NCBI RefSeq assembly: GCF_001428685.1 | Contig: NZ_LMIK01000010.1 | Location: 1 to 42,450 of the forward strand | Origin: Lysobacter sp. Root76 | GTDB taxonomy: Bacteria; Pseudomonadota; Gammaproteobacteria; Xanthomonadales; Xanthomonadaceae | DNA length: 42,450 nucleotides | Direction: 5' to 3' | Part shown: piece by piece, positions 1,763 to 38,087 of the stretch | Layout: every line of letters starts with the position of its first letter | How positions within the stretch are numbered: position 1 is the stretch's first letter | The notes under the pieces: model-generated | The model's input: only the letters and a program-made list of their open reading frames with translations | Databases searched by the model: none | Told to the model about the DNA's origin: nothing | Made by a program: the position numbers and the translations under genes

Positions 1763-3199
1763 ATGACCGCACCCGATTCCGGTTCGGACCGGCGCGAACG
1801 CCTGAAGGCACTGCGTGAGGCCGCTCTGCACCGACCGGTGCTGGCACGTCATCTTTCCGATGGATTCACCGGCCGCTGGTCGCGCCGCCAATGGGTGCAG
1901 GCCAGCCTGTTCGCGACCATGGGCATGCTGGTGCTGGCGATCGTGCCGGGCTTCAGCCCGGGCAACGCCAAGCCGCTGCACGCCGCGCGCCAGTCGCTGG
2001 CCTTGGCGCTGCCGCCGCTTCCGCTGGCGCGCGCCAAGGGCCAGACCGGCGACAGCTGGCAGCTGGTGCGGGTCGACCGCGGCCAGACCCTGGGCTCGGT
2101 GTTCAAGCAATTGGACATCCCGACCGCGACCATGCAGCAGATCCTCGAGCAGCCGGGCGCCAAGCAGGCGCTGACCCGGATGAAGCCGGGCACCGAACTG
2201 GCCTTCGACATGCCGGTCAACGGCACGCTGCGCAGCTTCCGCTACGACCGCGACGACAGCCATCAGATCGAACTGAGCCTGGACGGCGGCAAGATCTACC
2301 AGAAGGTGATCGCGCGCCCGAGCGAAACCCGCACCGTGGTGCTCAGCGGCAAGGTCGGTTCTTCGTTGTTCCGCTCGGCGCGCAAGGTCGGCCTGAGCCC
2401 CAACAACATCCGCACGCTGACCGACGACATCTTCAAGTACGACATCGACTTCAACGAAGACGTCGGCGCCAACGACCGCTTCAGCGTGGTGGTCGAGCAG
2501 ACCTGGCGCGAAGGCGAGCTGGTCAGCACCGGCCCGGTGCTGGCGGCGACCTTCACCAGCGACGGCAAGCTGCACACCGGCTTCCGTTTCGAGCGCAACG
2601 GCAAATCCGAGTACTTCACCGGCGACGGCCGTCCGCTGAAGAAGAGCTTCATCCGCATGCCGATCCCGTACGCGCGCCTGAGCTCGGGCTTCGGCGCACG
2701 CCGCCACCCGGTGCTGGGCCGCATGCGCATGCACAAGGGCGTGGACTACGCGGCCGGCAGCGGCACCCCGATCATGGCCGCCGGCGACGCGCGGGTGCAG
2801 ACGGCCGGCTGGATGGGCGGCTACGGCAACGCGGTGGTCCTGGACCACGGCCGCGGCTACACCACGCTGTACGGGCACATGTCGCGGATCGGCAAGATCC
2901 GTCCGGGCCAGCGCATCGCCCAGGGCACGGTGATCGGCTACGTCGGCAGCACCGGCATGTCGACCGGCCCGCACCTGCATTACGAATTCCGGGTCAACGG
3001 CGTGCACCGCAATCCGCTGTCGATCACCATGCCGCCGCCGGAGCCGCTGAGCGGTGCGGCGCTGGCGCAGTTCCGCTCGCAGACCGGTGTCGCGCTGGCG
3101 CGCATCCGTCAGGTCGAGAACATCATCTACGCCGACGCCACGCCGACCCCGAACCCGATGTCGCGCGCGCTGGCCACCAAGAAGAAGACCAAGGCCTGA
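1763..3199 (+). CDS. Membrane-anchored M23 murein endopeptidase (MepM/YebA-like)
   Basis: Zinc metallopeptidase predicted to cut peptidoglycan cross-links in the periplasm. The 478-residue protein has a basic cytoplasmic N-terminus, one membrane segment at about residues 46-64, an OapA/LysM-like region (about 85-165), a Csd3-type second N-terminal domain, and a C-terminal M23 domain. The zinc ligands are visible as HxxxD in HKGVDYAAG (near residue 324) and HxH in HLHYEF (near 404). The ATG at 1763 is preceded by AGGGGATT and by a good promoter, so the upstream extension of the frame into tyrS sequence is not real. The gene ends 20 bp before anmK, so it links cell-wall cleavage with recycling. 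It could equally be called a lysostaphin-family LytM endopeptidase. Confidence 0.92.
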
Positions 3200-3219
3200 G
3201 GCCTGACCTGAGGCCTGAA

Positions 3220-4362
3220 GTGCCCGCAAACACGCAGGCCCCCGCCGCGGGGCTGTTCGTCGGCCTGATTTCCGGCACCAGCGCAGACGGCATCGACGCC
3301 GCGCTGGTGCGTTTCGACTCCGCGCAGCATTGCGAACTGGTCCTGGGCCGCACCTACCCGTGGCAGGACGCGCTGCGCGCGCGCCTGGTCGCGCTGGGCC
3401 AGGGCGGCGACGCGCAGTCGCTGGAAGAACTGGGCACGCTCGACGTGCAGATCGCCGACGCCTTCGCCGAGGCCGCGCTGGCCTTGCTGGACGAAGCCGG
3501 GGCCGGCGCCGCCGACGTCAATGCGATCGGCTCCCACGGCCAGACCGTGCGCCACCGCCCCGAGGGCGCGTTCTACGACGGCCGCCATCCCTTCACCTGG
3601 CAGCTTGGCGACGGTCACCGCATCGCCGAGCGCTGCGGCATCGCCACGGTCGCCGACTTCCGCCGCCGCGACGTCGCCGCCGGCGGTCACGGCGCGCCGC
3701 TGGTGCCTGCCTTCCACGCCGCCCAGCTGCGCGCGGCCGACGAGGACCGCGCGGTGCTGAACCTGGGCGGGATCGCCAACTACACCCTGCTGCCGGCCAG
3801 CGGCGCGGTGCGCGGCTTCGACACCGGCCCGGCCAACTGCCTGATGGACGCCTGGCACCTGCTGCACCGCGGCGGCGCCTACGATGCCGACGGCGAGTTC
3901 GCCGCACAGGGCGAGTCCGATCCGGAACTACTGGCGCGCCTGCTCGACGAGCCCTGGTTCGCGCTGCCGCCGCCCAAGAGCACCGGCCGCGAGCACTTCC
4001 ACCTCGACTGGGTGCGCTCGCGCCTGAGCGGCGACGAGCGCGTCGAGGACGTGCAGGCGACCCTGCTGGAGCTGAGCGCGATCACCATCGCCGACGCCCT
4101 GCGCGCGCAGCAGCCCGGCACGCGCCGGGTGCTGGCCTGCGGCGGCGGCGTGCGCAATGCGCAGCTGCTGGGGGCGATCGCCGCGCAATTGCCGGACGTC
4201 GTATTGGAGTCCACCGCGGCCTACGGCCTGGATCCGGATTTCGTCGAAGCCATGGCCTTCGCCTGGCTGGCGCGGCAGACCCTGGCCGGCTTACCCGGCA
4301 ACCTGCCCAGCGTGACCGGCGCGCGCGGTCCGCGCGTGCTCGGCGTGGTTTATCCAGCCTGA
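3220..4362 (+). CDS. anmK: Anhydro-N-acetylmuramic acid kinase
   Basis: Cytoplasmic kinase that opens and phosphorylates 1,6-anhydro-MurNAc to MurNAc-6-phosphate during peptidoglycan recycling. The 380-residue product begins with the family signature [16 protein letters not shown]. It also has [11 protein letters not shown], the [10 protein letters not shown] segment, [12 protein letters not shown], and the C-terminal ACGGGVRN of the ASKHA fold. The start is GTG at 3220 and gives the usual family length. The Shine-Dalgarno is weak (CTGAGG). The gene is 20 bp behind the M23 peptidase and its 3' end overlaps a convergent small gene by 13 bp. With the ampG homologue at 4778-6397 it makes a small recycling cluster. 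Confidence 0.95.
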
Positions 4363-4703
4363 TTCTTGCCGGAAGGCACTTCGTCGATCAGTTTTTGCAG
4401 GTCGGCGTCGATCTGGCTCACGCCCGCATGGCCCCACTCGCCCTCGTCGACCGGACGCGGCGCGCGCCCGATCAGGGAATAGCCCGGATCGCTGGGCACG
4501 CTTTCCAGGGCCATGATCGCGGCCTTCAGAGCGCTGGCATCGGTATCGCTGAAGCGTGCGGCCATTTCGGTCTCGCAGGCGAACAGGCCGTGCTCCAGCA
4601 GGTGCATCAGCGCTTCGTCCGGGGACCAGTTGCGGGCCTCGGCGACCCGGCGGATGCGTTCGGCCAGCACCGGGTCGATGTCGTGCAGGACAATATCGGT
4701 CAT
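4350..4703 (-). CDS. Conserved hypothetical protein with RHH-like N-terminus
   Basis: This is a 117-residue acidic cytoplasmic protein with no signal peptide or membrane segment. The first 45 residues (starting [19 protein letters not shown]) look like a ribbon-helix-helix fold: a short strand followed by two helices, as in FitA/Arc-type DNA-binding proteins. The rest is acidic and lacks a recognisable motif. No toxin gene lies beside it, so an antitoxin role is not supported. It overlaps the end of anmK by 13 bp in a convergent arrangement and lies 74 bp from the start of the minus-strand strip below it. Codon use and composition match its neighbours, which supports a real gene. Function unknown. 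Confidence 0.75.
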
Positions 4704-4777
4704 CGCCGCACTTTACCTCAGCAAACCGTGGGTTTTGTGCATGAACGTCGGTGAATCGTGAGCGCGGTCGCGAGCGT

Positions 4778-6397
4778 TCAGGCGACGGTGGCCGGCGCCG
4801 CCACCGGACGCCGCATCACCAGCAGCAGGCATAGCAACAGCGCCGGAATGCCGATCAAGGCGGTGCCGATGAAGAACAGCGAATACGCCTCCAGCAAGGT
4901 GCGGCCGGTTTCCAGGTGCTCCACCGCGAGCCCCGACAAGCCCTTGAGGAACTTGCCGGGCATGGCATAGAACGAACTCAGCAGGGCGTACTGGGTGGCG
5001 GTGTAGCCCACGCTGGTCAGGCTGGACATGTAGCCGACCAGGGCCACGCCGGCGTAGCCGTTGCTGAAGTTGTCGATCGCCATGACGATCGCGAACACGG
5101 TCGGGTCGCTGCCGTGCAGGGCCAGGTAAGCGAAGGCCAGGTTGGAGGCCGGACCCAGCACCGCGCCCACCAGCAGGGTCGGGACGAAGCCGAAGCGGAT
5201 CGCGCTCAGGCCGGCCGCAGCGATGCCGACGATGGTCGCGATCATCCCGACTGAGACGCGCACCGCACCCACGGTCTCCTTGCCCACCCCCAGGTCGGCG
5301 TAGAACGGGTTGGCCATCGGCCCGAGCACGAAGTCGGGCAGCCGGTACAGGCTGATCGCCAGCAGCATGAGCAAAGCCCACTTTCCGTGGGTGCGCAGGA
5401 ACATCAGCAGCGGGCCGAGCACCGCATCGAAGAAGCGCAGCAGCGGCCGCACCAGCGGCCGCGACCAGGTCGCCTCGTGCACCGGCTGGCCGCCCTGGGG
5501 TCGGCGCATCAGCAGCCACAGCACCAACGCCACGCCGCCGGCGAACACGGCGTCGAGATAGCTCCAGTCGGCGTCCCAGAAGTTGTGCTTGGCGACCTGG
5601 TAGGCCACCGCGAGCACGCCGATCGCCAGGGCCGCGAGCCAGCGCACCACCATCGCGTCGGACACGCCGAGCTTTTCGTCGGCCGCATCGACGATCTCGA
5701 TCACCGGTTCGGGGTCGGCCAGGCGCGCCTCGCGCGCCAGGAACACCGCGACCATACCCACGCCCAGCAGCAGTGCCATGATCTCGTACGAAACCGCCCA
5801 GCCCACGCGCGCGGCCATGATCAGGATCAACGCATCGGTTACTTGCAATGCGGCGCGGTAGCCCAGCGCGCCGCTCGCGGTCAGCAGGCCCTGCTGCTCG
5901 TTGCTGTCGGCGCTTTCGATGCGCCAGGCGTCGATCACGATGTCCTGGGTTGCCGAGGCGAACGCGACCACCAACGCCAGCGCGCCGAATACCAGCAGGT
6001 GGTTCAGCGCCACCCCGCCTAGCACCAGCTCGCCCTTGTGCGGTTCGACCAGGGCCATGCCCAGCAGCGCGGCGCTGGCGACGATCTGCGACAGCAGCAT
6101 CCAGCCGCGGCGGCGCCCGAGCCAGCGCCCGAACAGCGGCGCATAGGCCTTGTCGACCAGCGGCGCCCACAGGAATTTCAGCGAGTACGCCAGCCCGACC
6201 CAGGACAGGAAGCCGATCGTCGACAGCTCGATCGCGTTCTCGCGCATCCAGTACCCGAGCGTGTTGCCGACCAGGTAGATCGGGATGCCCGAGCTGAAGC
6301 CCAGCAGCAGCATCGCCAGCACCTTGGGCTCGCGCAGGCTCTTGAGCACCTGCCGCCAGCCCGGGCGCGGCTTCGCCGCGGCGGCGTCAGAGCTCAT
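4778..6397 (-). CDS. ampG: AmpG-family muropeptide permease (MFS)
   Basis: Inner-membrane major-facilitator transporter predicted to import GlcNAc-anhydroMurNAc peptides for recycling. The 539-residue protein has about 14 hydrophobic segments. Its opening (LLLGFSSGIPIYLVGNTLGYWM) and the segment LKFLWAPLVDKAYAP match AmpG. The motif QDIVIDAW is conserved in AmpG and in the related acetyl-CoA transporters. AmpG runs to about 490-590 residues, so the length fits. The ATG lies inside the end of xthA (11-bp overlap), which suggests co-transcription. Nearby anmK uses the sugar that this permease brings in, which supports the assignment. In many bacteria AmpG also feeds the inducer of AmpC beta-lactamase, but no ampR or ampC is in this window. 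Confidence 0.92.
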   Translation of the reverse strand: MSSDAAAAKPRPGWRQVLKSLREPKVLAMLLLGFSSGIPIYLVGNTLGYWMRENAIELSTIGFLSWVGLAYSLKFLWAPLVDKAYAPLFGRWLGRRRGWMLLSQIVASAALLGMALVEPHKGELVLGGVALNHLLVFGALALVVAFASATQDIVIDAWRIESADSNEQQGLLTASGALGYRAALQVTDALILIMAARVGWAVSYEIMALLLGVGMVAVFLAREARLADPEPVIEIVDAADEKLGVSDAMVVRWLAALAIGVLAVAYQVAKHNFWDADWSYLDAVFAGGVALVLWLLMRRPQGGQPVHEATWSRPLVRPLLRFFDAVLGPLLMFLRTHGKWALLMLLAISLYRLPDFVLGPMANPFYADLGVGKETVGAVRVSVGMIATIVGIAAAGLSAIRFGFVPTLLVGAVLGPASNLAFAYLALHGSDPTVFAIVMAIDNFSNGYAGVALVGYMSSLTSVGYTATQYALLSSFYAMPGKFLKGLSGLAVEHLETGRTLLEAYSLFFIGTALIGIPALLLCLLLVMRRPVAAPATVA

Positions 6398-7160
6398 AGT
6401 CGACGATGAACGGGGCGTGGTCGGAGAAACGCGGTTCCTTCTGGATCGCCCAGCCGCGCAGGCGGTCGCGCAGGCCCGGGGTCACCAGCTGGTAGTCGAT
6501 GCGCCAACCCACGTCGTTGCCGCGCGCGCCGCCGCGGTTGCTCCACCAGGTGTAGTCCTGGCCTTCGGTATTGAGCGCGCGGTAGGCGTCGACCCAGCAC
6601 TTGTCGCCGTCGCACAGGCCGTTCAGCCACTCGCGCTCGGGCGGCAGGCAGCCGGAGTTCTTCTGGTTGCTGGTCCAGTTCTTGATGTCCAGGCGGCTGC
6701 GCACGATGTTCCAGTCGCCGCACAGCACGTATTCGCGGCCGCTGCGCAGCCACTCGTCCAGCTTGGGCTTGAGCCAGTCCATAACCTCGAACTTGAAGCC
6801 CTGGCGCAGCTCGCCCGAGGAACCGGACGGGATGTAGAACGAAACGACGCTGAGATTGCCGAAACGTGCCTCGATGTAGCGGCCTTCGTCGTCGAACGGC
6901 GCCCAACCCATCGCGGTGCGGACCTCGTCCGGTTCGCGCTTGGAGTAGATCGCGACGCCGCTGTAGCCCTTCTTGGTGATCGCGTCGCGGAAGTAGGCGC
7001 GGTAGCCCTCGGGCAGAAATGCCGGGCCGGTGAGCTGGTGCTCCTGGGCCTTGGTTTCCTGGATGCACAGCACGTCGGCGTTCTGGGTGCGGAACCAGTC
7101 GAAGAAGCCCTTGGTGGCCGCCGAACGCAGGCCGTTGGCATTGAAGCTGATGATGCGCAT
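6387..7160 (-). CDS. xthA: Exodeoxyribonuclease III / AP endonuclease
   Basis: Mg-dependent enzyme of base-excision repair that nicks DNA at abasic sites and has 3'-5' exonuclease activity. The 257-residue product shows the family blocks in order: N-terminal IISFNANGLRSA, the metal-ligand segment CIQETKAQ, YSGVAIYSK, CGDWNIVRS (the catalytic D-x-N), a central WWSNRGGARGNDVGWRIDY, and the terminal FSDHAP catalytic histidine. I chose the ATG at 7160 because GGAG lies 5 bases upstream. A GTG two codons earlier (7166) is the alternative. The stop overlaps the ampG start by 11 bp, so the two are probably co-transcribed. The upstream gap separates it from the divergent acetyltransferase gene. Confidence 0.95.
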   Translation of the reverse strand: MRIISFNANGLRSAATKGFFDWFRTQNADVLCIQETKAQEHQLTGPAFLPEGYRAYFRDAITKKGYSGVAIYSKREPDEVRTAMGWAPFDDEGRYIEARFGNLSVVSFYIPSGSSGELRQGFKFEVMDWLKPKLDEWLRSGREYVLCGDWNIVRSRLDIKNWTSNQKNSGCLPPEREWLNGLCDGDKCWVDAYRALNTEGQDYTWWSNRGGARGNDVGWRIDYQLVTPGLRDRLRGWAIQKEPRFSDHAPFIVDYEL

Positions 7161-29150: not shown

Positions 29151-29627
29151 TTACAAGCCCGAGCAATTCTCGCCGCAGACCTTGGGTCTCTCGAGGAAAC
29201 CGCGCGCGCCTTCGCGAGCCTCGCGCATCTCGGCCTGGGTGCCGCAACGGGTCTTCTTCATGCCGGTGCCGCTCACGCGTTCGCGCCAGCACACGTCCTG
29301 ATCGTCGCGTGCGCTGCGGGTGTCGACGATTTCGGCGTTGATGCGCTCCAGGGCGTTCTCCAGCCGGATCTTTTCGTCCATCGACAGCTGGTCCAGGGAC
29401 TGCTTGCCCTCGGCGACCGCGAACACTTCCTTCTGCGCCTTTCGGATCGCATTGGCCTGGCGCGGGCTGAGACCTTCGAAGCGGTTGCCGTCGAGATCGG
29501 CCTGAATCTCGCGCTGTTGCTCCAGCACGATCTGCAAGCGGTCGCGGCCGTCGGCCGACGCGTTCTCGGCTGCCGACAAGGGCCCTGCGGCCAGGGCCAG
29601 CAGCAGACACAGCACTAGACGTTTCAT
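29151..29627 (-). CDS. Small exported protein, paralogue A of four
   Basis: The 158-residue product has a Sec signal peptide (MKRLVLCLLLALAAGPLSA, cut near residue 19) and a helical middle (residues about 28-105). Its Cys-containing end is DDQDVCWRERVSGTGMKKTRCGT, then MREAREGAR and a terminal pair VCGENC. It is the most divergent of four tandem genes that share C-x-R/E-R-x(2)-x-G-(S/T)...RxC-x-T-x-AxxR. It is last in the series and ends 18 bp from comM, convergent. The ATG at 29627 has GGAG 8 bases upstream. Predicted periplasmic and function unknown. The terminal CxxxC is shared in type only with paralogue B (CxxC). Confidence 0.85.
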   Translation of the reverse strand: MKRLVLCLLLALAAGPLSAAENASADGRDRLQIVLEQQREIQADLDGNRFEGLSPRQANAIRKAQKEVFAVAEGKQSLDQLSMDEKIRLENALERINAEIVDTRSARDDQDVCWRERVSGTGMKKTRCGTQAEMREAREGARGFLERPKVCGENCSGL

Positions 29628-29996
29628 GGCGATGACTCCGTGTGTGGAGCGTGGGCGCTGCCGCGATCGCTGAAGAAGCAGGCGGTGTCGCGGGCCTGGC
29701 TCGTTTGGTCTTTCCCCGAGCCGGACATTACGCCGCCCCGCCACCGGCTTCAACGGCCGCAGGCACCGCAGGTCGGAAACGCGGAACGGCGCCTGGCGCG
29801 CCGATCGGGGCCGGCCGCCTTCGCCGCGTCGCGGCGGTGCGGATTCGCATTCGCGGCTGGCCGGCCAAGGCCATGAACTTGCCGGCGATAGCTACGCGCA
29901 GATAGGCGCGCGCCGAAACGAAACAGGCGGCCCGAAGGCCGCCTGTCCGGGCATCGCGTCGCGACACCCACCGCTTGCGCGCGTGGAGCGCGGCGA
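29628..29996. other. Intergenic region between paralogues A and B
   Basis: This 369-bp stretch has no supported gene. It contains the terminator of paralogue B at 29913-29945. The rest, toward A, should hold the promoter of A, but I find no convincing -35/-10 pair. Open frames across it are shadows. Confidence 0.5.
29913..29945 (-). terminator. Rho-independent terminator of paralogue B with UUCG tetraloop
   Basis: On the minus strand the 9-bp stem CAGGCGGCC has loop TTCG and its exact complement, followed by TTTCGTTTCGG. It starts about 50 bp after the stop of paralogue B. The cUUCGg loop is unusually stable, so termination should be strong. Confidence 0.8.
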
Positions 29997-30470
29997 TCAG
30001 TTGCTCTTGCAGTCGGCGCAGCCGCCGCGGCTGTCCATTTGGTTGCGCGCGGCGTCGCGCTCTTCGCGCATCTGCGCGACGGTCTTGCACACGCGCTCGC
30101 GGCGCGTGCTGCCCAGGATCTGACGACGCTCGCAAACCAGGCGCTCGTCTTCGGTCTTGTTGATCGCAGCTTCGATCCACTCCAGCGCATTGAAGACTTC
30201 GGTCTTCTGCTCTTCGTTGAGATCGTCGGTCGAGCTCTTGCCTTCGAGCGTGCGCAGCACTTCGCCCTGCTTGGCCAGCAGCTGCGAACGGGTGTCGGCG
30301 TTGAGGTTCTTGTAACGGCCAGTGCGCGACTCGACGCCGGCGCGGATCTCCGCCTGCTGGCTGCGGATCGACTCGACCTGCAACGCGTTGCGGTCCACCG
30401 AAGCGAACGCGGCCGGCGCAGCCAGCAGGCCGCCGAGCACGAGGGCCATCACTACCTTCTTCATCGACAT
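29997..30470 (-). CDS. Small exported protein, paralogue B of four
   Basis: The 157-residue product has a signal peptide (MSMKKVVMALVLGGLLAAPAAFA, cut about residue 23 before SVDR), a helical body with ESIRSQQAEIRA and LLAKQ, and the shared block EVFNALEWIEAAI. The Cys motif is DERLVCERRQILGSTRRERVCKT and the tail ends GGCADCKSN. It is strongly similar to paralogue D from the signal cleavage site on. Paralogue C is intermediate and A most divergent. The start is ATG at 30470 (ATG at 30464 possible). Neither has a strong Shine-Dalgarno. A promoter is predicted at 30501-30529 and a strong terminator follows, so it appears monocistronic. Confidence 0.87.
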   Translation of the reverse strand: MSMKKVVMALVLGGLLAAPAAFASVDRNALQVESIRSQQAEIRAGVESRTGRYKNLNADTRSQLLAKQGEVLRTLEGKSSTDDLNEEQKTEVFNALEWIEAAINKTEDERLVCERRQILGSTRRERVCKTVAQMREERDAARNQMDSRGGCADCKSN

Positions 30471-30500
30471 TGGAACGATCCGTGGTTTTTGGAGCACCCG

Positions 30501-30529
30501 AACATACTTTGCCGAATCGGCCGTGTCGA
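30501..30529 (-). promoter_or_regulatory. Candidate sigma70 promoter of paralogue B
   Basis: On the minus strand TCGACA, 17 bp and TATGTT (-35 5/6, -10 4/6) lie 31 bp before the ATG at 30470. The distance and spacing are ideal. Confidence 0.5.
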
Positions 30530-30701
30530 CTGCCTCCCACCCTCTTTTTCGCAGCTTTGCGCCAAGCCGAATGCAGCTATCGGGGCGCCGCCCAAATAGA
30601 GCGATCGCCCAACCTGGCACGCGTAGGCAAGGCCCACCCAGGGGCCGGCCGTATTCAGGTCAGCGATGTTCATGGAACACGCCGCGATCCAGGCGCTTGC
30701 C

Positions 30702-30718
30702 GGCCCGCTTCGCGGGCC
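30702..30718 (-). terminator. Hairpin behind paralogue C, no U-tract
   Basis: GGCCCGC with loop GAA and its complement GCGGGCC (minus strand) lie 74 bp after the stop of paralogue C. The stem is stable, but there is no U-run, so a Rho-independent role is doubtful. Confidence 0.35.
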
Positions 30719-30791
30719 TCGTGTTCCTCGGTTACGGTCTCGCCGAAAATCGCTGGCGAATGCAGATCGCGCGGGTGTCGCCCGGGATGCG

Positions 30792-31265
30792 TCAGAGCTC
30801 GGAAGTACCGAGCTGGCGCGGGCGATGATCGAGCTTCTGACGCGCGCGTTCGCGCTCGGCGCGCTGCTCGGCGACGGTATGGCAGACCCGGGTCACGCGC
30901 TGGCTGCCCAGGATCCGTTCGCGGTGGCAGATCGTGCGCTCGTCCTCGGTGCCGTTGATCTTGGCCTCGATCCATTCCAGGCGGTTGAAGACCTCGACCT
31001 GCTCGTGCGCGTTCAGGTCCTCGGAGGTCGCCTTGTCCTCGATCAGGCTCAGCAGTTCCAGCTGCTTGGTCAGCAGTTCGACGCGCTCGCCGGTCGGCAA
31101 CTCGCGGTAACGGCCGCGCTGGGCCTGGTCGTCGGCGCGGATCTGCTTCTGCTGCTCGATGATCGCCACCATCGGCACCGGCGGTGCCGGCGGCACCTCC
31201 GGCTTCGGGCCGGCCGCTGCCAGGGCGGGCGCCAGCAGCAGTACGGACAGGACGAGGATGCGCAT
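30792..31265 (-). CDS. Small exported protein, paralogue C of four
   Basis: The 157-residue product has a signal peptide (MRILVLSVLLLAPALAAA) and a short proline-rich start to the mature part (PKPEVPPAPPVP). The helical body contains IIEQQKQIRAD and LLTKQLELLSL, and the shared EVFNRLEWIEAKINGTEDER is followed by the Cys motif CHRERILGSQRVTRVCHT and a basic tail without further Cys. It differs from B and D by the proline-rich linker and by lacking the ASVDR start. The ATG at 31265 has GGGAG at 8 bases. A candidate promoter lies at 31317-31345. Predicted periplasmic, function unknown. Confidence 0.86.
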   Translation of the reverse strand: MRILVLSVLLLAPALAAAGPKPEVPPAPPVPMVAIIEQQKQIRADDQAQRGRYRELPTGERVELLTKQLELLSLIEDKATSEDLNAHEQVEVFNRLEWIEAKINGTEDERTICHRERILGSQRVTRVCHTVAEQRAERERARQKLDHRPRQLGTSEL

Positions 31266-31316
31266 CGCCGGAACTCCCTGGCTGGGCGACGGAAACACCG
31301 TCGCGATCGGCAGCCA

Positions 31317-31345
31317 GAGATACACGCGGCGACGGCGCAAGGCAA
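31317..31345 (-). promoter_or_regulatory. Candidate sigma70 promoter of paralogue C
   Basis: On the minus strand TTGCCT, 17 bp and TATCTC end 51 bp before the ATG at 31265. The hexamers are 4/6 each, with ideal spacing. Confidence 0.4.
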
Positions 31346-31406
31346 CGCCTCGCGTCGAAATACGCGCTTGGGACTAAGCCGTCCGGGTGAATTCAGGACG
31401 GCCGGC

Positions 31407-31428
31407 CCGGCGGCGGCGATGCCGCCGG
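31407..31428 (-). repeat. 8-bp hairpin downstream of paralogue D and its extension
   Basis: CCGGCGGC and its exact complement surround a 6-base loop. It lies 8 bp after the stop of the in-frame extension. There is no U-tract, so it is at best a weak terminator or a 3'-end stabiliser. Confidence 0.35.
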
Positions 31429-31435
31429 ACAGGTT

Positions 31436-31582
31436 TCAGGGTCGCTGCACGCCGCCGGAAAGGGGGCCCGACTGCGGCACGCAGAGGGCCGAGTCGCCCT
31501 TCCATTCGTGCGCGTACCGGATCAGGTTTTCGCGCTCGGCGATGGTCGCAAAGCGGGTTTCGCGCAGGTCGGTGCGTTCGCC
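31436..31582 (-). other. In-frame 48-codon open extension after the paralogue D stop
   Basis: After the TAA of gene D the same frame stays open for 48 codons and reads GERTDLRETRFATIAEREN ... then HEWKGDSALCVPQSG, closed by TGA at 31436-31438. The composition looks coding (charged, amphipathic, few rare codons). It may be a decayed C-terminus, a readthrough product or a chance open frame, since GC-rich DNA gives long open frames. No start codon with a Shine-Dalgarno was found for an independent gene. Confidence 0.35.
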
Positions 31583-32029
31583 TTACTGGCGCACTTCGCC
31601 GTTCTGCAGCCGCTCACGGGCGGATTCGCGCTCGGCGCGGATCTGGGCGGCGGTGCGGCACACGCGCTCTTTGCGGTTGCTGCCCAGGACCTGGCGACGC
31701 TCGCACACCATGCGCTCGTCGTCGGCCGAGTTGATCGCCGCTTCGATCCACTCCAAAGCGTTGAACACTTCGGTTTTCTGGTCCTCGTTGAGGTCCTGGG
31801 TCGACTGCTTGCCTTCCATCAGATGGAACAGTTGCTGCTGCTTGGCCAGCAGTTCGCCGCGCGTGTGGGTGGGCATGTCCTTGTAGCGGCCGTTGGCGGC
31901 CTGGACCGCGGCGCGGATTTCGCTCTGCTGGGAACGGATCGATTCGAACTGCAGCACGCCACGGTCGACCGAGGCGAACGAGAGGGGGGCCACCAGCAAC
32001 AACGACAGGGCCCAGGCTCGGAACTTCAT
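31583..32029 (-). CDS. Small exported protein, paralogue D of four
   Basis: The 148-residue product has a signal peptide (MKFRAWALSLLLVAPLSFA, cut near residue 19 before SVDR), a helical body with ESIRSQQSEIRA and LLAKQQQLF, and EVFNALEWIEAAIN. The Cys motif is DERMVCERRQVLGSNRKERVCRT and the tail is charged. It is the nearest relative of paralogue B, with which it shares the start of the mature protein, and it lacks the terminal Cys pair. The ATG at 32029 has GGAG at 8 bases. It is the gene nearest the RiPP dehydrogenase, 429 bp downstream on the same strand. Function unknown. Confidence 0.88.
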   Translation of the reverse strand: MKFRAWALSLLLVAPLSFASVDRGVLQFESIRSQQSEIRAAVQAANGRYKDMPTHTRGELLAKQQQLFHLMEGKQSTQDLNEDQKTEVFNALEWIEAAINSADDERMVCERRQVLGSNRKERVCRTAAQIRAERESARERLQNGEVRQ

Positions 32030-32458: not shown

Positions 32459-33664
32459 TCAGCCCTCTGGCCGGTCCGGCGCCCGCTCGAACCCAGCCTC
32501 GGGCGCCCATACCGCACCACCGGGATCGAATTCGGCCGTGCTGCGCTCCGCCGAGCGCCAGCCGAAGCCGCACACCGCCAAGGGACCTTCGATCAGAGGA
32601 TCCAGGCCGAACGCACGTTCGATATCGACCTCGTTGACCGCGCAGGTCACGAACGCGCCCAGCCCCAGCTCGGTCGCGCTCAGGTACAGGGTCTGCGACA
32701 GGTGGCCGCTGTCCAGCACCAGGGCGCGGTAGGCCTTGGCGTGGTGGCGGTACTTCCAGAAACAGCGCGCGTAACGCGGCGCCAGCACCGCCAGCACCGG
32801 CGCGCCGGCGAACCAGTGCTGGCCGGCCAGCGCGCGCAGCGCGAATGCGGCCAGGGCTTCGTTCGGCGGCGGCAGCGGTTCCAGCGCGTGCGCGACCGGG
32901 TGGTAGTGGTACAGCCCAGGCGCCACGCCTTCGACGTTTTGCACCACCAGGTAGGCTTCGGTCGGATGCAGGCCGCCGGCCGAGGGCGTGTGCTTTTTCA
33001 GGAACACCGCGTCGTCGTGGGTCCGCAACTGGGCCTGGGCGGCGAACGTGCGTTGCAGCATGTGCGCGAACAAGTGCTGCGGCAGCGGCCGTTCGCGGTC
33101 GAAGTTGCGGCAGGTGGCGCGGCGCGCGAGCAGCGCATCGAATTCGCCCGGCGCGATCTCCGGCAAGGCGATGCGTTGCGCGGCCGGGACCCGCTCGTGC
33201 ACCGGCGGCGGCGGCGCACCGAGTTTGTCGAGCAGACCGGACACGGTGGTCATGTCCTTGGCCTCCATGTCGGCCACGCCATCCACGCCCTCCCAACGCG
33301 CCAGCCGGTGCAGCATCGCCGACGCCGGCCACCAATGGCCGTCGCGCAGCCGTTGGTCGCGTTCGCGGTGGCCGGCGTGGGCCGGGTCTTCGCCGATCAG
33401 CAGGCCGAGCGCGAGCAGGCGTTCGAGCGCGGCGGGCGGCGCCTCGGCCAGCGTTTCGGTGGAACTCCATTCGCCGGGGCTGAGCCGGCCGAGCAGTTCG
33501 CGCTCGTCGGCGTCGATCTCGATTTCGCCGTCCAGATGCGCGGCCAAGGCCAGCCAGCGCCGTTGGCGCCGCAGTCCGGCGCCGCCGCTGAGCAGGGACG
33601 ACAGATCGAAGCCGATCTCCTCGCGCGGTTCCAGAAACACCACCGCGCATCGCCGCACCCGCAT
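32459..33664 (-). CDS. SagB-related putative peptide-maturation dehydrogenase
   Basis: Flavin-dependent nitroreductase-fold protein of the SagB/ThcOx group, which in RiPP pathways oxidises azolines to azoles. The 401-residue product has an N-terminal part starting MRVRRCAVVFLEPREEIGFD and a flavoprotein domain at about residues 176-385: LLARRATCRNFDRERPL, KKHTPSAGGLHPTEAYLVV, GLYHYHPVAHALEPL, KYRHHAKAYRALVLDSGHL, and the end GFGWRSAERSTAEFD. It fits what I recall as TIGR04511 (putative peptide maturation dehydrogenase). The frame opens at 33721, but I prefer ATG at 33664, with GGGAG six bases upstream and the typical MRVRR start. It is divergent from the precursor. No YcaO cyclodehydratase is in the window. 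Confidence 0.88.
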   Translation of the reverse strand: MRVRRCAVVFLEPREEIGFDLSSLLSGGAGLRRQRRWLALAAHLDGEIEIDADERELLGRLSPGEWSSTETLAEAPPAALERLLALGLLIGEDPAHAGHRERDQRLRDGHWWPASAMLHRLARWEGVDGVADMEAKDMTTVSGLLDKLGAPPPPVHERVPAAQRIALPEIAPGEFDALLARRATCRNFDRERPLPQHLFAHMLQRTFAAQAQLRTHDDAVFLKKHTPSAGGLHPTEAYLVVQNVEGVAPGLYHYHPVAHALEPLPPPNEALAAFALRALAGQHWFAGAPVLAVLAPRYARCFWKYRHHAKAYRALVLDSGHLSQTLYLSATELGLGAFVTCAVNEVDIERAFGLDPLIEGPLAVCGFGWRSAERSTAEFDPGGAVWAPEAGFERAPDRPEG

Positions 33665-33701
33665 ATTCCGCTCCCGCGCTGCATTTTTACGGAGTTTGAG
33701 G

Positions 33702-33730
33702 TTGTCCCGTACGTGGGACAAGGATAGATT
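33702..33730. promoter_or_regulatory. Divergent RiPP promoter with shared inverted repeat TTGTCCC-N6-GGGACAA
   Basis: A perfect-arm inverted repeat (33702-33721) lies between the dehydrogenase and precursor genes. TTGTCC of the left arm is the -35 of a plus-strand promoter with a 17-bp spacer and TAGATT (33725-33730), 46 bp before the precursor ATG. TTGTCC of the right arm, read on the minus strand, can serve as the -35 for the dehydrogenase promoter, with a weaker -10 (TCAAAC or CAAACT). One bound dimer would control both. The 7-N6-7 architecture resembles sites of CRP/FNR-class regulators, but the sequence is not the CRP consensus. Confidence 0.7.
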
Positions 33731-33775
33731 CCTCGGCTATCGGGGCCGCAACAGGCTCTGCTAGGGGGAGTACCG

Positions 33776-34102
33776 ATGGGCAACGACAACAGCAGGGGGC
33801 ATCCGCCCCTGGATCCGAAGATCGCCGACAAGCTGCTCGACAAGCTCGGCAACGACGATCATTTCCGCGAGCTATTCGTTCAGGACCCGGCCGCCGCGCT
33901 GGGACGGGTCGGCCTGGCGCCGGCGCAGACCAAGGCCGCACTGTCCGATACGAGCTGCATGATGGTGGCGAACATCGCCCCGAAAGAAGAAATCCAGGCC
34001 TCGCGCGATGAGCTGCGCAGCTACCTGACCTCGGAAGACACCCACACGGTGGTTCACTGCTTCGAAGCGGGCAGCGTCGCGTCCAGCCTGCGCATCAAGT
34101 AA
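33776..34102 (+). CDS. Putative RiPP precursor peptide, NHLP-related
   Basis: The 108-residue protein looks like a nitrile-hydratase-leader type precursor, as I recall TIGR04509 (putative modified peptide). After a polar start it has KIADKLLDKLGNDDHFRELF and the leader-like FVQDPAAALGRVGLAPAQ (about residues 38-53). Next come SDTSCMMVANIAPKEEIQAS, a charged helix DELRSYLT, and a terminal region HTVVHCFEAGSVASSLRIK. Cys61 and one in the tail are the only two cysteines. It has no signal peptide or membrane segment. The core boundary is uncertain. ATG at 33776 has a strong Shine-Dalgarno (GGGGGAG, 5 bases). It is divergent from the dehydrogenase and its last 49 bp overlap the convergent cyclase gene. 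Confidence 0.85.
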   Translation: MGNDNSRGHPPLDPKIADKLLDKLGNDDHFRELFVQDPAAALGRVGLAPAQTKAALSDTSCMMVANIAPKEEIQASRDELRSYLTSEDTHTVVHCFEAGSVASSLRIK

Positions 34103-36690
34103 GGCGGCAGGGTCTCGCTCGCCCAGGCGCGGCGGAAGGCTTCGGCTTCCCGCCGCGCTTCGTCCGGGCGACCGAGACCCGCCAGACGTTCGGCCGCATC
34201 CAGCGGCGCCAGGCTGGCGTCGGCCACGCTCATCGATTGCAGGGCCTGGCCGCCGAGCGGCTCGATGTAGGCCAGGCCGCGGTGCGCGGCCAGCCAGCGG
34301 TCCTGCTTCAGCGCCTCTTCGGCCTTGCCGGCATCGCGCAGCGCGTCACGCAGGGCGACGTGCAGCTGGAACGGCTCGCTGCCGTCGATCTCGCGCGCCA
34401 GCAGCACCGCCGCTTCGGCCGGCTTGCCGCTCAGGCGCAGCTGTTCGGCCCTGGCCACGGTCAGCAGCTTGATCGCGCCGATGTGGCCCGAGTCCTCGGT
34501 CATCGCGCCCAGCTTCGGCAGCAGGCGCTCGCCGATGCCGCGGTCGCCGGTGCGCTGGCCCAGCCGCACCGCGGCCAGGGCCATCACCAGCAGGTCGTCG
34601 CGGTCGGCTTCGCCGGCCGGCTTGTCGGCGTCGGCGACGATGGCCTCGGCCAGCGCGGCGATCCTGGCCGGCGCCACCGAGTCCGGGTCGCGCAGCAGGT
34701 CGGTCCAGTAGTCGGCGATGGCGAACGGGTAACGCAATAGCGGATTGGCGTTGCCCGCGGCGGCGGCGGCGCGGTCGGCGCGGCGCTGGGCCTCGCTCAG
34801 GCGGCCCTGGTCGAGCGGAATCGAGATGCGTTCGAACTCGTTGACCAGCACGCCCAGGCTGCGGTCGTTGGCGGGTAGCCCGGCCAGCACTTTTTCCGCC
34901 TCGGGGTAGCGGCGCAGCGTCGCCAGCGCGGCGGCGTGACGGCGCGTGGGCGGGTACTGACCGGCGGTTTCGGCCTGCTTGAAGCTTTCCAGCGCCTGCG
35001 CCGGACGCTCCTGGGCCAGGTAGACGCGGCCCTTGAGCTCCATAGCGATGTCGCGCAGCGCGTTCTGCGGGGCGGCGAACGCCTGCGCGCCGCGCAACGC
35101 GGCGTCGTAGCGGCCGGAGGTGAAGTCGAACCAGGCCAGGCGGCTCTGGCCGGCGTAGTAGTCCGGATACAGGCCGGCCAGCAGCTTCCACTTCGGCGCC
35201 GCGCGCCGCGAAGGCTGCGGGCCGAACTCGGCGGCCCAGGCGTCCAGGTACAGGGCGTCGCGCGCCGGCAGGTGCTCGCGCAACGCGATCGCGCGGGTCA
35301 GCGAGGGCCGTGCGGCGGCGTTGTCGGCGTTGCTCACGTACACGCGCATCACGCCCATGTGGGCGAGCGCGAAGTTCGGGTCCAGTTCCAGCGCGCGCTG
35401 GAAATACTGCAGCGCTTCCGGGAACTGGCGCTTGGCGTAGGCCTTGGTGCCCAGGGCGTAGGCGCGCAGCGCGTCGAGGTTCTTGGTGGTGACCTGCGGC
35501 AGCGGCGCGGAATCGTTGTCGATCGACTTCAGCGCCTCGCCCAGCTTGTTGCGCAGGCTGGCGGTGACCTGGTCGATCGAGGCCAGCGCCGAACCGGCGC
35601 CGACGCCGTCGACCGACTCGGCGTAGACGGTGGTCTGGGTGTGCGGGTCGATCACCTCGGCGCTGACGCGCACGCGCCCGCCGACTTCGGCCACGGTCGG
35701 CAGGATCACCGCGCGCGCGCCGTCGCGCAGGGCGATCTCGGACGCGACCGAACGGTCGAGGAAGGTATCGGACTTGCGCTGCATCCGCGCCAGCGTGTCG
35801 CGCGCCTTGAGGTCGGACAGCACGTTGACGTAGCGCGACTGCTCCAGGCTGATCCGGAACGCCTGCTCCAGCGAATCGTCGAGCACGCTCTGGCCGGTGA
35901 GGTTGCGCAGGTCGCCGACCACCACCCAGTCGCGCTCGTTGAAGGCGATCGCCGGCTGCGGCTTGGTCACGAACCACACGCCCACGCCGACCACCGCCAG
36001 CAGCGCGACTTCCGCCGCGAGCGCGGCCGGGCGCCGCCACAGCGGCACGTCGCGCCAGGCCTTGGGCGAATTCGGCGGCGCGCGCAGCGGCGCGATGCCG
36101 GGCTCGCCGACCTCGTAGATTTCCTGGGGATCGGGCACGCCCTTGAAGCGCCAGCGGCCGTAGGACTTCCACAGCAGTTGCTGGCCGCGCTCGCCGAGTT
36201 CGCGCGCGGCGCGATGGGCGAGCGGCTCGGCCACCGCCGACAGCAGGATCTGGCCGGGACGCGCCATCGCCATCAGGCGTCCGGCCATGGGTTTGGCCAG
36301 GCCTTCGACTTCCAGCGGCTTGGCGCCGACCTTGACCGCCTCGTCGCTGTTGCGCCAGGTCAGCACTTCGCCGACGTGCAGGCCTGCACGCGCGAGCAGG
36401 GGCTGTTTGCGTTCGCGCCCGATCTCGCGCAGGCCGCGCTCGTAGTCCAGGGCGAAGCCGAGGCCGTCGATCGGGCGTTCGAACAACAGCAGCAGGCCGT
36501 CGGAACGGTCGATCAGGCGGCCGCGCCATTGTTGCTGCAGCTGCAGGACCAGGCGGTCGTGTTCGCGGAACAACTCCGCCGCCGGGCCGTCGCCCAGGCG
36601 TTCGACCAGGGTGGTCGAATCGCACAGGTCGGTCAGCAGCAGCGTCCGCAGTTGCGGCGCTTCCGGATGGGGGCGGTGGGCATCGTTCAT
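34054..36690 (-). CDS. Membrane-anchored class III nucleotide cyclase with FlgO-like and TPR domains
   Basis: Predicted to make cGMP or cAMP. The 878-residue protein has an N-terminal class III cyclase domain (about 1-200). Metal aspartates appear as D21 in LLLTDLCDST and D64 in DRSDGLLLLF, with ARAGLHVGEV and GRLMAMARPGQILLS following. A membrane segment (about 217-240) is followed by a FlgO/CsgG-like segment (about 250-400: ERDWVVVGDLRNLTGQ) and many TPR units. It matches the layout I recall as TIGR04510 (putative peptide modification system cyclase) and resembles the Xanthomonas campestris cGMP cyclase XC_0250. The start is ATG at 36690 with AAGGA. It lies 34 bp after the cNMP-GGDEF gene on the same strand. 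Its 3' end overlaps the precursor by 49 bp. Confidence 0.9.
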   Translation of the reverse strand: MNDAHRPHPEAPQLRTLLLTDLCDSTTLVERLGDGPAAELFREHDRLVLQLQQQWRGRLIDRSDGLLLLFERPIDGLGFALDYERGLREIGRERKQPLLARAGLHVGEVLTWRNSDEAVKVGAKPLEVEGLAKPMAGRLMAMARPGQILLSAVAEPLAHRAARELGERGQQLLWKSYGRWRFKGVPDPQEIYEVGEPGIAPLRAPPNSPKAWRDVPLWRRPAALAAEVALLAVVGVGVWFVTKPQPAIAFNERDWVVVGDLRNLTGQSVLDDSLEQAFRISLEQSRYVNVLSDLKARDTLARMQRKSDTFLDRSVASEIALRDGARAVILPTVAEVGGRVRVSAEVIDPHTQTTVYAESVDGVGAGSALASIDQVTASLRNKLGEALKSIDNDSAPLPQVTTKNLDALRAYALGTKAYAKRQFPEALQYFQRALELDPNFALAHMGVMRVYVSNADNAAARPSLTRAIALREHLPARDALYLDAWAAEFGPQPSRRAAPKWKLLAGLYPDYYAGQSRLAWFDFTSGRYDAALRGAQAFAAPQNALRDIAMELKGRVYLAQERPAQALESFKQAETAGQYPPTRRHAAALATLRRYPEAEKVLAGLPANDRSLGVLVNEFERISIPLDQGRLSEAQRRADRAAAAAGNANPLLRYPFAIADYWTDLLRDPDSVAPARIAALAEAIVADADKPAGEADRDDLLVMALAAVRLGQRTGDRGIGERLLPKLGAMTEDSGHIGAIKLLTVARAEQLRLSGKPAEAAVLLAREIDGSEPFQLHVALRDALRDAGKAEEALKQDRWLAAHRGLAYIEPLGGQALQSMSVADASLAPLDAAERLAGLGRPDEARREAEAFRRAWASETLPPYLMRRLDATLPASKQ

Positions 36691-36724
36691 CGCGACGGCA
36701 TCCTTGTTCGTTCGCGGGTGCCGG

Positions 36725-37774
36725 TCAGACCGGTTCCAGTGTCGCGTCTTGCCAGTGCACGCGGTTGCCGCCCTTGCGTTTGGCCTGGTACAGCGCTTCG
36801 TCGGCGCGCGCGTACCAGTCGTTCCAGTCCGCGCGCGGGTCGACCATGCAGGCGCCGACGCTGACCGGACAGATGGTCGGCGGCGCTTGCGGCATCAGCA
36901 GCAGGTTCTGCGCCGTGGCGACGATGAACTCGGCGAAGCGCATCACCTCATGGGCATGCCCGGCCGAAACCAGCAGGCAGAATTCGTCGCCGCCCAGGCG
37001 GCAGGCGATGTCGTCGGGGCCGGCGACCGAGCGCAGGATGCTGGCCACGCTCTGCAGCACGCGATCGCCGGCGAGGTGGCCGTGGTCGTCGTTGACCTGC
37101 TTGAAGCGGTCGCAGTCCACCAGCACCAGGCCCAGGGTCTGCGGCATGCCCAGGGCGCGGGACTCCTGCAGGTGCAGGGTCAGGCCGCGGCGGTTGTACA
37201 GGCCGGTGAGCTCGTCGGTGCGGATCAGCTCTTCGGTCTGGTTGAGCTGATGCGTGGTCGCGTACAGGCTGTCGAGCGCGGCCTCGAGGTCCTGGTTGCG
37301 ACGGCGCAGGCGCCGGATCAGGCCCTGCTCGTTGAGCACCACGCGCATGATCGCGCGGCGCAGGAAATGGCAGACCAGGCCGGCGTTGCGATCGACCAGG
37401 CGCTGGAATTCCTCGTGGCGCAGTTCGATCAGCAGACCGGAACCGGCGACGATGGCGTCGGCGCTGCGCGCGTGGTCGCCGATCAGCAGGCCGAGTTCGC
37501 CGAAGAATTCGCGTGGGCCCAGGCGCTTGGTGACCAGGTCGTCGCCGAAGTCGAGATCGATCGCGCCGCGCGCGACCACGAACATGGTCGTGCCCAGTTC
37601 GCCGCGACGGAACAGCACCTGGCCGGCTTCGACGTGGCGGGGACGGCCGAGTTCGGCGAACAGTTCGAATTCCGCTTGGCTAAGCGCCGCCGTCGCCGCT
37701 TCATTAGGCGCCGCGACTGGATCCGAATTGAACTGACCGCCCGTCATGGTCGGCGCAGCACCATCGCGATTCAT
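36725..37774 (-). CDS. Cyclic-nucleotide-binding diguanylate cyclase (cNMP-GGDEF)
   Basis: Cytoplasmic 349-residue protein: a CAP_ED cNMP domain (about residues 30-150), a helical linker (LRRRNQDLEAALDSLYATT), then a GGDEF domain (about 185-345). The phosphate-binding cassette is FFGELGLLIGDHARSADA, with the conserved FGE...R-S-A. The catalytic signature is intact, RLGGDEFCLLV. The usual I-site RxxD is GPDD, so product inhibition is probably absent. It matches the layout of Xanthomonas XC_0249, in which cGMP binding activates c-di-GMP synthesis. It lies 34 bp upstream of the cyclase gene, so the pair is an operon. Start: ATG at 37774, after GGGGG; the frame is open to 37834. Confidence 0.92.
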   Translation of the reverse strand: MNRDGAAPTMTGGQFNSDPVAAPNEAATAALSQAEFELFAELGRPRHVEAGQVLFRRGELGTTMFVVARGAIDLDFGDDLVTKRLGPREFFGELGLLIGDHARSADAIVAGSGLLIELRHEEFQRLVDRNAGLVCHFLRRAIMRVVLNEQGLIRRLRRRNQDLEAALDSLYATTHQLNQTEELIRTDELTGLYNRRGLTLHLQESRALGMPQTLGLVLVDCDRFKQVNDDHGHLAGDRVLQSVASILRSVAGPDDIACRLGGDEFCLLVSAGHAHEVMRFAEFIVATAQNLLLMPQAPPTICPVSVGACMVDPRADWNDWYARADEALYQAKRKGGNRVHWQDATLEPV

Positions 37775-38087
37775 CCCCACGACCCCCGGATCCCCGGTTC
37801 CTTCAGAGGCTGGAGAGGCAGGATAGCACCTCACTTGCAGGGCAAACGGCCTATCCGGGGGAAGTCGGTCAGGCCGCTACCGCCCCACCGGGAGGGCGGG
37901 GGCGGCTGCGATCGAGCCGTTTCGATCTGGACCCACGATCCAGGCCCATCGATCCCACCGGCTTCGATCGAGCCGCGCCGGTCCGCTCCCTGCACCGCGG
38001 CTGGCCGCGGTCCGAGCGATCGCCGCAGCCCACCCGGTCCCCCAACCGGGTGCGCCGCGCGATCGGCCACGCGTCCGTTCATCGCAT
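37775..38087. other. Intergenic region between aceA and the cNMP-GGDEF gene
   Basis: This 313-bp region has no supported gene. A perfect 8-bp hairpin (CACCCGGT, six-base loop, ACCGGGTG, 38031-38052) follows the aceA stop by about 36 bp and probably marks its 3' end, though there is no U-tract. A weak promoter candidate for the GGDEF gene is TTTGCC, 15 bp, TATCCT (minus strand, 37820-37846). The rest is GC-rich with short palindromes only. Confidence 0.5.

Follow-up and report, generated by a model that had tools for sequence, protein, structure and literature searches.

The window analysed here is the whole of a 42,450-nucleotide stretch of DNA from Lysobacter sp. Root76 (NCBI RefSeq assembly GCF_001428685.1, contig NZ_LMIK01000010.1, positions 1 to 42,450). 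It carries a four-gene locus in which the genes of a putative peptide-modification system adjoin those of a cyclic-nucleotide relay. Bare letters denote the four genes and their proteins, namely D (dehydrogenase), P (precursor peptide), C (cyclase) and G (a protein with cyclic-nucleotide-binding, or cNMP, and GGDEF domains), whereas labels such as L077 and G091 denote loci and genomes, respectively. The features are as follows.

32459..33664, minus strand: D, SagB-like flavin dehydrogenase, putative peptide maturase, 401 amino acids from ATG 33664 (TIGR04511)
33665..33775, unstranded: divergent intergenic region of 111 bp between the D and P starts
33776..34102, plus strand: P, NHLP-like precursor peptide, 108 amino acids (TIGR04509)
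34054..36690, minus strand: C, single-pass guanylate cyclase-like receptor, 878 amino acids (TIGR04510)
34054..35950, minus strand: part of C within the exchanged cassette, 3′ of roughly residue 250–290, placed by comparing relatives rather than from the window alone
36725..37834, minus strand: G, cNMP-binding and GGDEF protein resembling XC_0249 (Pfam cNMP_binding and GGDEF)

P lies on the strand opposite to C, D and G; its 3′ end overlaps that of C by 49 nucleotides, and it is transcribed divergently from D across 111 bp that probably hold the promoters for both genes. The open reading frame (ORF) of D spans 32459–33721 on the minus strand, with ATG 33664 as its likely start. G is located upstream of C on the same strand after a gap of 34 bp. 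An earlier interpretation made from the letters of this DNA (the sequence-only reading) had described the four genes as contiguous and had assigned the first three to three NCBIfam models. Both points hold, as the ORF list and gene calling place no further gene between D, P, C and G, and an NCBIfam profile search gives 577 bits for D (cut-off 240), 99 bits for P (cut-off 34) and 1158 bits for C (cut-off 400). C comprises a cyclase domain (residues ~1–200), a membrane helix (~219–243) and a sensor half with FlgO-like and tetratricopeptide repeat (TPR) regions (~246–878).

Among 250 genomes of the order Xanthomonadales, TIGR04510, TIGR04509 and TIGR04511 each exceed their cut-offs in the same 57 genomes. 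In a phylum sample of 349 genomes, the six that pass the TIGR04509 cut-off all belong to this order. The cNMP domain of G is found at an E value below 1e-20 in 59 of the 250 genomes (the next match has an E value of 1e-11), which include 56 of the 57 cassette genomes, the exception being G091, versus 3 of the 193 others (G106, G111 and G233). In these three, G sits between an isocitrate lyase gene and a Mg-chelatase-like gene; profile searches reveal no C, P or D match in the surrounding 19.5 kb, nor do the TIGR04509 and TIGR04511 searches list a P or D match elsewhere in these genomes. In 51 of the 57 cassette genomes, G and C are neighbours on one strand; in five of the six exceptions (G214, G014, G024, G073, G091 and G237), G is encoded elsewhere in the genome. 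G091, the sole cassette genome in which G was not found, carries five near-identical tandem precursors in its locus L124 (positions 4723–6677).

Gene order is similarly uniform. In all 103 loci with C, P and D together, the P with the highest score lies on the strand opposite to C; at least one genome was entered twice in this count (L096 and L142). D is on the C strand in 95 of these loci and on the P strand in 8, all of which have short tails like SLGWVVFCR. Because the four genes recur together in conserved order in dozens of genomes, their grouping exceeds chance. This co-occurrence supports the proposal of the sequence-only reading that peptide genes and relay form one circuit; that reading had named precursors and dehydrogenases occurring mostly without the cyclase pair and without co-regulation as one ground for abandoning it, and the families are instead found in the same 57 genomes.

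Exchange of the sensor half, precursor and dehydrogenase as one cassette

The main new result is that P, D and the sensor half of C are exchanged as a single cassette, which continues from within C through P to approximately the end of D. For example, L077 and L100, two loci of the same genus, are 100% identical in G and 100% identical in the cyclase domain, with only 15–20% identity in the TPR region of C and 33% in D. At the DNA level, the two share 97.4% identity across the 9.2 kb leading up to C residue 263, and 98.8% across a further 5.9 kb that begins 250 bp past D; blastn finds no match between these two points. We infer that this genus, which contributes 30 loci, is Xanthomonas, because the G proteins of L077 and L100 are 94% identical over 125 residues to PDB entry 5h5o, whose residue spacing fits that of XC_0249.

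The same pattern is observed in seven close congeneric pairs, where DNA through G and the cyclase domain is 89–97% identical, similarity is lost 20–113 residues past the membrane helix and, in six of the seven, resumes 68–250 bp past D (blastn). In the six pairs other than L077/L100, the left flank is 89–95% identical and five resume 68–245 bp after D. In window-equivalent residues of C, similarity stops at 285 (L166/L176), 290 (L173/L076 and L172/L076), 292 (L164/L170) and 356 (L162/L076); in L160/L177 it stops at residue 290 and never resumes, D being truncated there. Three pairs of a second genus break at C residues 375–386. These edges are approximate because they are read from the ends of alignments, and protein identity declines more gradually than the blastn edges imply.

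P is carried by 30 of the 35 genomes of the first genus and is broken in two of the loci (L180 and L181). The 28 intact loci fall into six types, comprising type A with 15 loci, type B with 6, type C with 4 and three types represented by one locus each. A quick tree of these 28 loci, built from 4 kb upstream including G and the cyclase domain, requires at least 11 switches of type, where 5 is the least possible. Sister pairs with support of at least 98 that nevertheless differ in type are L160/L177, L077/L100, L166/L176 and L076/L173.

Matched bases were then compared for 25 of the 30 loci (L180, L181, L160 and L171, the latter two with truncated D, and the long-branched L175 were left out). 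For 402 ordered pairs of different type, the mean matched fraction is 0.97 in the left flank, 1.00 in G and the cyclase domain and 0.90 in the right flank, versus 0.04 in the sensor and 0.11 across P and D. Pairs of the same type keep every segment at 0.96 or above. Since types are defined by sensor and tail, loss of the sensor is built into this comparison, whereas nothing in the definition dictates the loss of P and D or the constant flanks. Specifically, less than half of P–D is matched in all 402 different-type pairs and in none of 198 same-type pairs. For the right flank, the matched share falls below half in 35 of 378 pairs of different type and in 12 of the same type, with L167 or L179 involved in almost every case.

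Also consistent with joint exchange is the co-variation of the cassette parts. Correlation, clustering and Mantel analyses used 86 of 107 loci, each with a full-length C; the other 21 were excluded because they contain more than one precursor, lack G within the locus, or include genes that are broken or cut. When cyclase domains are more than 0.9 identical (303 pairs), the identity of the sensor correlates with that of D (rho 0.91) and of the P tail (0.81), versus 0.08 for the cyclase domain and 0.29 for G. Outside the first genus, 40 close pairs give 0.87 and 0.82 for D and tail, versus 0.22 and 0.26 for cyclase domain and G. Tails can also be alike across genera. The window tail is similar to the one encoded at L066 (similarity score 0.78), a locus of a different genus whose G has an identity of 0.67 to the window G. 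When the L066 tail is compared with those of L079, L067 and L094, which belong to its own genus, the scores are 0.22, 0.54 and 0.02, while the G proteins are 0.93 to 1.00 identical. Peptide, maturase and sensor thus co-vary while the output domain is conserved, which is the pattern expected of a pherotype, and sensor, P and D act as one unit.

These results bear on an explanation in which the genes are linked but functionally separate. An outside ligand or enemy would diversify the sensor half of C alone, with P and D hitch-hiking to make a product that has nothing to do with the cyclase. Adjacency of the three genes fits this explanation, and in L071/L080 and L075/L134 the sensor diverges while D remains near-identical. 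We nevertheless consider it unlikely, given the strict co-occurrence of the three families, the replacement of P–D in every different-type pair (with types defined by sensor and tail), the joint absence of C, P and D beside G in G106, G111 and G233, and the recurrence of co-variation outside the first genus.

Several variant loci display parts of the cassette in other settings. L083 and L085 carry, after D, a second sensor half without a cyclase that is about 50% identical to sensors elsewhere, and L123 encodes a protein kinase domain fused to an FlgO/TPR sensor half (2354–5239, minus strand). Since it can stand without a cyclase or be joined to a kinase, the sensor half appears to be a portable module. 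In L117 (G237), nine precursor and five dehydrogenase matches, one of them partial, surround one full cyclase, accompanied by part of a second cyclase that contains a stop. The dehydrogenase is broken in L160, L171, L180 and L181, as is the precursor in L180 and L181, and transposase-like ORFs adjoin the breaks in L160 and L180, as we read the sequence.

In the window, the locus is flanked on one side by isocitrate lyase, malate synthase and LysR genes, and on the other by four small paralogous genes followed by a Mg-chelatase-like gene. The four tandem paralogues (29151–32029, minus strand) encode proteins of 148–158 amino acids with a signal-like N-terminus, a Cys pair in common and no Pfam match; this cluster is present in 3 of 61 compared sequences, with the window counted. 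The nearest named relatives found, Lysobacter sp. cf310 and Root916, encode a C that is 96% identical.

The conserved relay and the peptide genes

The cyclase domain and G, which remain in place during exchange, retain the residues expected of a working relay. Residues 5–182 of C match solved cyclases, namely the cyclase part of LipJ and Ma1120, both of which we take to be class III enzymes, and TPRs are the only part of C recognised by Pfam. These matches and the Pfam identification of G agree with the domain assignments of the sequence-only reading, and its comparison with the XC_0250/XC_0249 pair of Xanthomonas campestris is borne out at the level of single residues. Six positions of XC_0250 were probed by mutation (D41, D71, L73, A150, L157 and A161) by An et al. 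(PMC3770947). With an inferred numbering offset of 7, all six letters are equal in C (D34, D64, L66, A143, L150 and A154). In an 89-row alignment that counts the window copy and shows a few sensor-only copies as gaps, these are kept in 81, 85, 58, 84, 67 and 80 rows, respectively. A hydrophobic helix lies near residue 231 in 107 of 108 rows, with another peak in 8 rows, and its basic flank is on the cyclase side. The predicted topology therefore would place the cyclase inside and the FlgO/TPR half in the periplasm.

The residues of XC_0249 that contact cyclic GMP (cGMP) are F73, E90, L91, H98, V142, N145 and E146. Mapped by residue spacing, all seven are equal in the window G (F96, E113, L114, H121, V165, N168 and E169), its GGDEF motif is intact at 281, and its best solved-structure match is 5h5o. 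Across 76 rows, with the window copy counted, the first four of these residues (F, E, L and H) and the final E never vary, V is kept in 60 and N in 59, and the GGDEF motif is kept in 75. The N of the N–E pair is S in 12 rows and G in 5; ligand preference may therefore vary there, and these 17 receivers may prefer another cyclic nucleotide. C probably makes cGMP. In X. campestris, cGMP made by XC_0250 activates the diguanylate cyclase XC_0249 (An et al. 2013, PMC3770947), and G may place synthesis of cyclic di-GMP (c-di-GMP) under cGMP control in this locus as well.

The peptide genes resemble a locus for a ribosomally synthesized and post-translationally modified peptide (RiPP), in that P has a conserved leader and a separable tail, a maturase gene is adjacent, and P and D share one stretch with C in the 103 loci. 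In the window, P consists of a leader to about residue 66, a conserved IAPKEEI... segment (67–86) and a variable C-terminal tail (87–108; EDTHTVVHCFEAGSVASSLRIK). An alignment of 80 precursor ORFs reveals the leader pattern L..L...DD.FR..F..DP..AL...G followed by a conserved LASKEEI... stretch. Tails are 9–37 residues long and form 33 classes among 86 loci, as divided by a mechanical leader/tail split that is visibly misplaced in L137, L138 and L111, all three of which were kept. A basic C-terminus is not a general processing mark, as K or R occurs in the last three residues of 18 of the 33 tail classes.

The ratio of nonsynonymous to synonymous polymorphism (pN/pS) is 0.07–0.17 in leader, middle and tail alike for types A (13 loci) and B (6 loci). 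All three parts of P are under purifying selection in these types, and the tail is not diversifying within either of them.

The D profile matches the oxidases CyaGox, BmdC and McbC. W303-K304-Y305 is invariant in 21 sequences and aligns with the FWKY motif of CyaGox. YcaO proteins are absent from the window's genome, and any YcaO occurs in only 3 of the 57 cassette genomes. This lack of a cyclodehydratase partner led us to reject the chemistry of azole- and azoline-containing RiPPs (thiazole/oxazole-modified microcins). D is probably the modifying enzyme of P and, because FWKY is kept yet YcaO is so rare in cassette genomes, probably acts without a cyclodehydratase.

The discrete types and constrained tails also invite an explanation based on antagonism or kin discrimination, in which the modified peptide harms other types, a matching sensor and the cGMP relay detect self or signal protection, and conflict keeps the types diverse. 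Orphan modules are a trait of polymorphic toxin systems, and the exchanged block with its discrete types, the extra sensor halves after D in L083 and L085 and the multi-copy L117 resemble them. Such conflict would also fit tails that are constrained in types A and B but show almost no relationship from one sensor type to another. The cassette nonetheless contains no immunity-like or export gene that we could see, its sole partner is a cyclase receptor and G is tied to the system. We regard antagonism as improbable, by a shade more so than separate functions.

A proposed peptide signal and its receptor cyclase

The swapping of P, D and the sensor half as a block in relatives suggests that the peptide is the signal of the receptor. 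We therefore favour, with somewhat better than even confidence, a polymorphic signal–receptor cassette that feeds a conserved second-messenger relay, with the modified peptide as the ligand of the receptor guanylate cyclase. P would be made on the ribosome as a precursor. D, a SagB-like flavin dehydrogenase without a YcaO partner, would recognise its NHLP-like leader and alter P, and the C-terminal tail would serve as the signal. This signal would enter the periplasm and bind the FlgO/TPR half of C, as the predicted topology allows, and binding would shift the cGMP output of this single-pass receptor guanylate cyclase. cGMP would then bind the cNMP domain of G and change c-di-GMP synthesis, a step proposed from the conserved residues. 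Because tail, maturase and sensor must match, they would be swapped between strains as one block while the cyclase domain and G stay, yielding discrete, pherotype-like types. The sequence-only reading had suggested that the peptide is sensed by, or acts on, the cyclase through its TPR part. The joint exchange of TPR half, tail and D around a stationary cyclase domain supports this idea strongly, although indirectly.

The wiring could also run in reverse, with C sensing an outside cue and cGMP or c-di-GMP controlling an output derived from P, which would then not be a ligand. P and D, divergent over 111 bp, may share regulation, and many transcripts are altered in an XC_0250 mutant according to An et al. 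(PMC3770947). However, reverse wiring offers no reason for the sensor half to be replaced jointly with P and D when the output half stays the same. Furthermore, no CRP/Clp-like site was found near the locus with up to 2 mismatches, in a search that did not extend to other regulators, and matches in the window number 4 versus 6.8 expected by chance. We rate reverse wiring as less likely again than either antagonism or separate functions.

Several observations weigh against a peptide ligand for C. The absent exporter is the weakest point, as no exporter or protease gene lies within the cassette and no export signal is seen in P. C39 peptidase domains occur in 38 of the 57 cassette genomes (they were not found in 19) versus 76 of the 193 others; this family was rejected as the dedicated exporter on these counts, and other exporters were not searched. 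The sequence-only reading, accurate on the protein families, the likeness to the known relay and the single circuit, thus had to be supplemented with a predicted periplasmic TPR half and a precursor lacking a visible export signal. None of eleven residue types counted is common to all 33 tail classes, so no single substrate residue for D emerges. The right edge of the cassette is inside D in two of the three pairs of the second genus, and 57 bp past D in the third.

Across all 3655 pairs, the sensor–tail correlation (0.44) is no higher than that of sensor and G (0.43), with sensor–D at 0.65; the contrast is visible in close pairs and weak overall. Cluster agreement (adjusted mutual information) is as high for cyclase–sensor (0.62) as for sensor–tail (0.63), a measure that does not discriminate because many lineages are single. 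Partial Mantel values have the expected direction (sensor–tail 0.20 versus sensor–leader 0.12; D–leader 0.34 versus D–tail 0.21). The finer pairing of leader with D and tail with sensor is confounded by gene order, because the tail adjoins the C 3′ end and the leader adjoins D, and we do not use it as proof. In L071/L080, the P tail differs less than the sensor, and D hardly at all. Linkage alone might produce the joint pattern, because sensor, P and D are neighbours. Finally, the cyclase domain alone restored biofilm formation to an XC_0250 mutant, as described by An et al. (PMC3770947). The sensor half is therefore not needed for basal activity; it may hold the enzyme back or adjust it, instead of being a requirement for it to work.

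Relation to known systems and biological meaning

The locus looks as if it works like a pherotype system built of unrelated parts. In the ComQXPA system of Bacillus, the sensor part of ComP varies while its kinase half and ComA stay. Polymorphism of comQXP (PMC4408185 and PMC4008528) means that maturase, peptide and sensor vary together there, as they do here. ComQXPA is the closest parallel, although it relies on an isoprenyl transferase and a histidine kinase, whereas the window locus has a SagB-like oxidoreductase, an NHLP-like precursor, a receptor cyclase and a c-di-GMP output in Gram-negative hosts. RRNPP sensors are cytoplasmic and bind unmodified peptides. Their TPR-type domains bind ribosomal peptides with which they co-evolve, ComR–XIP being an example (PMC8605241). 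In contrast, the TPR part here belongs to a transmembrane cyclase and is predicted to be periplasmic. D shares its sequence family with the SagB-type dehydrogenases McbC and CyaGox and with the nonribosomal peptide synthetase oxidase BmdC, and has FWKY in common with CyaGox; it differs from SagB-type systems in the near absence of YcaO.

Both halves of the locus have been named or described before, the peptide system by NCBIfam and the cGMP relay by An et al. in 2013. The three NCBIfam model names denote a putative peptide modification system and do not mention G, the relay or polymorphism, and the accessions TIGR04509, TIGR04510 and TIGR04511 were found in no paper of the literature searched. 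The XC_0250/XC_0249 pair has the same domain order as C and G, along with the six cyclase positions and seven cGMP contacts. The parts of the 2013 paper at hand mention no precursor, dehydrogenase or exchange of the TPR half, and they call the TPR domain uncharacterised and leave its ligand open (PMC3770947). Because the TPR half is exchanged together with a peptide and its probable maturase, a concrete candidate for this ligand can now be named. We know of no later answer to what a TPR half of the XC_0250 type senses. In titles and abstract openings, a search mostly outside subscription journals, we found no report that connects the peptide genes with the cGMP relay or describes exchange of the cassette.

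More broadly, and with slightly less than even confidence, we propose that ribosomal, enzymatically modified peptides gate a family of transmembrane receptor guanylate cyclases in Xanthomonadales. Exchangeable types, some alike across genera, would separate strains into signalling groups and would govern c-di-GMP, and hence biofilm formation and lifestyle, by way of a fixed cGMP relay. If this is true, it would point to uncharacterised RiPP chemistry that is independent of YcaO. It would also represent Gram-negative peptide signalling from a combination of parts that, to our knowledge, are not known together, and the natural types would make its specificity testable. Group identity would then be tied to the control of biofilm and lifestyle in soil, plant-associated and biocontrol bacteria.

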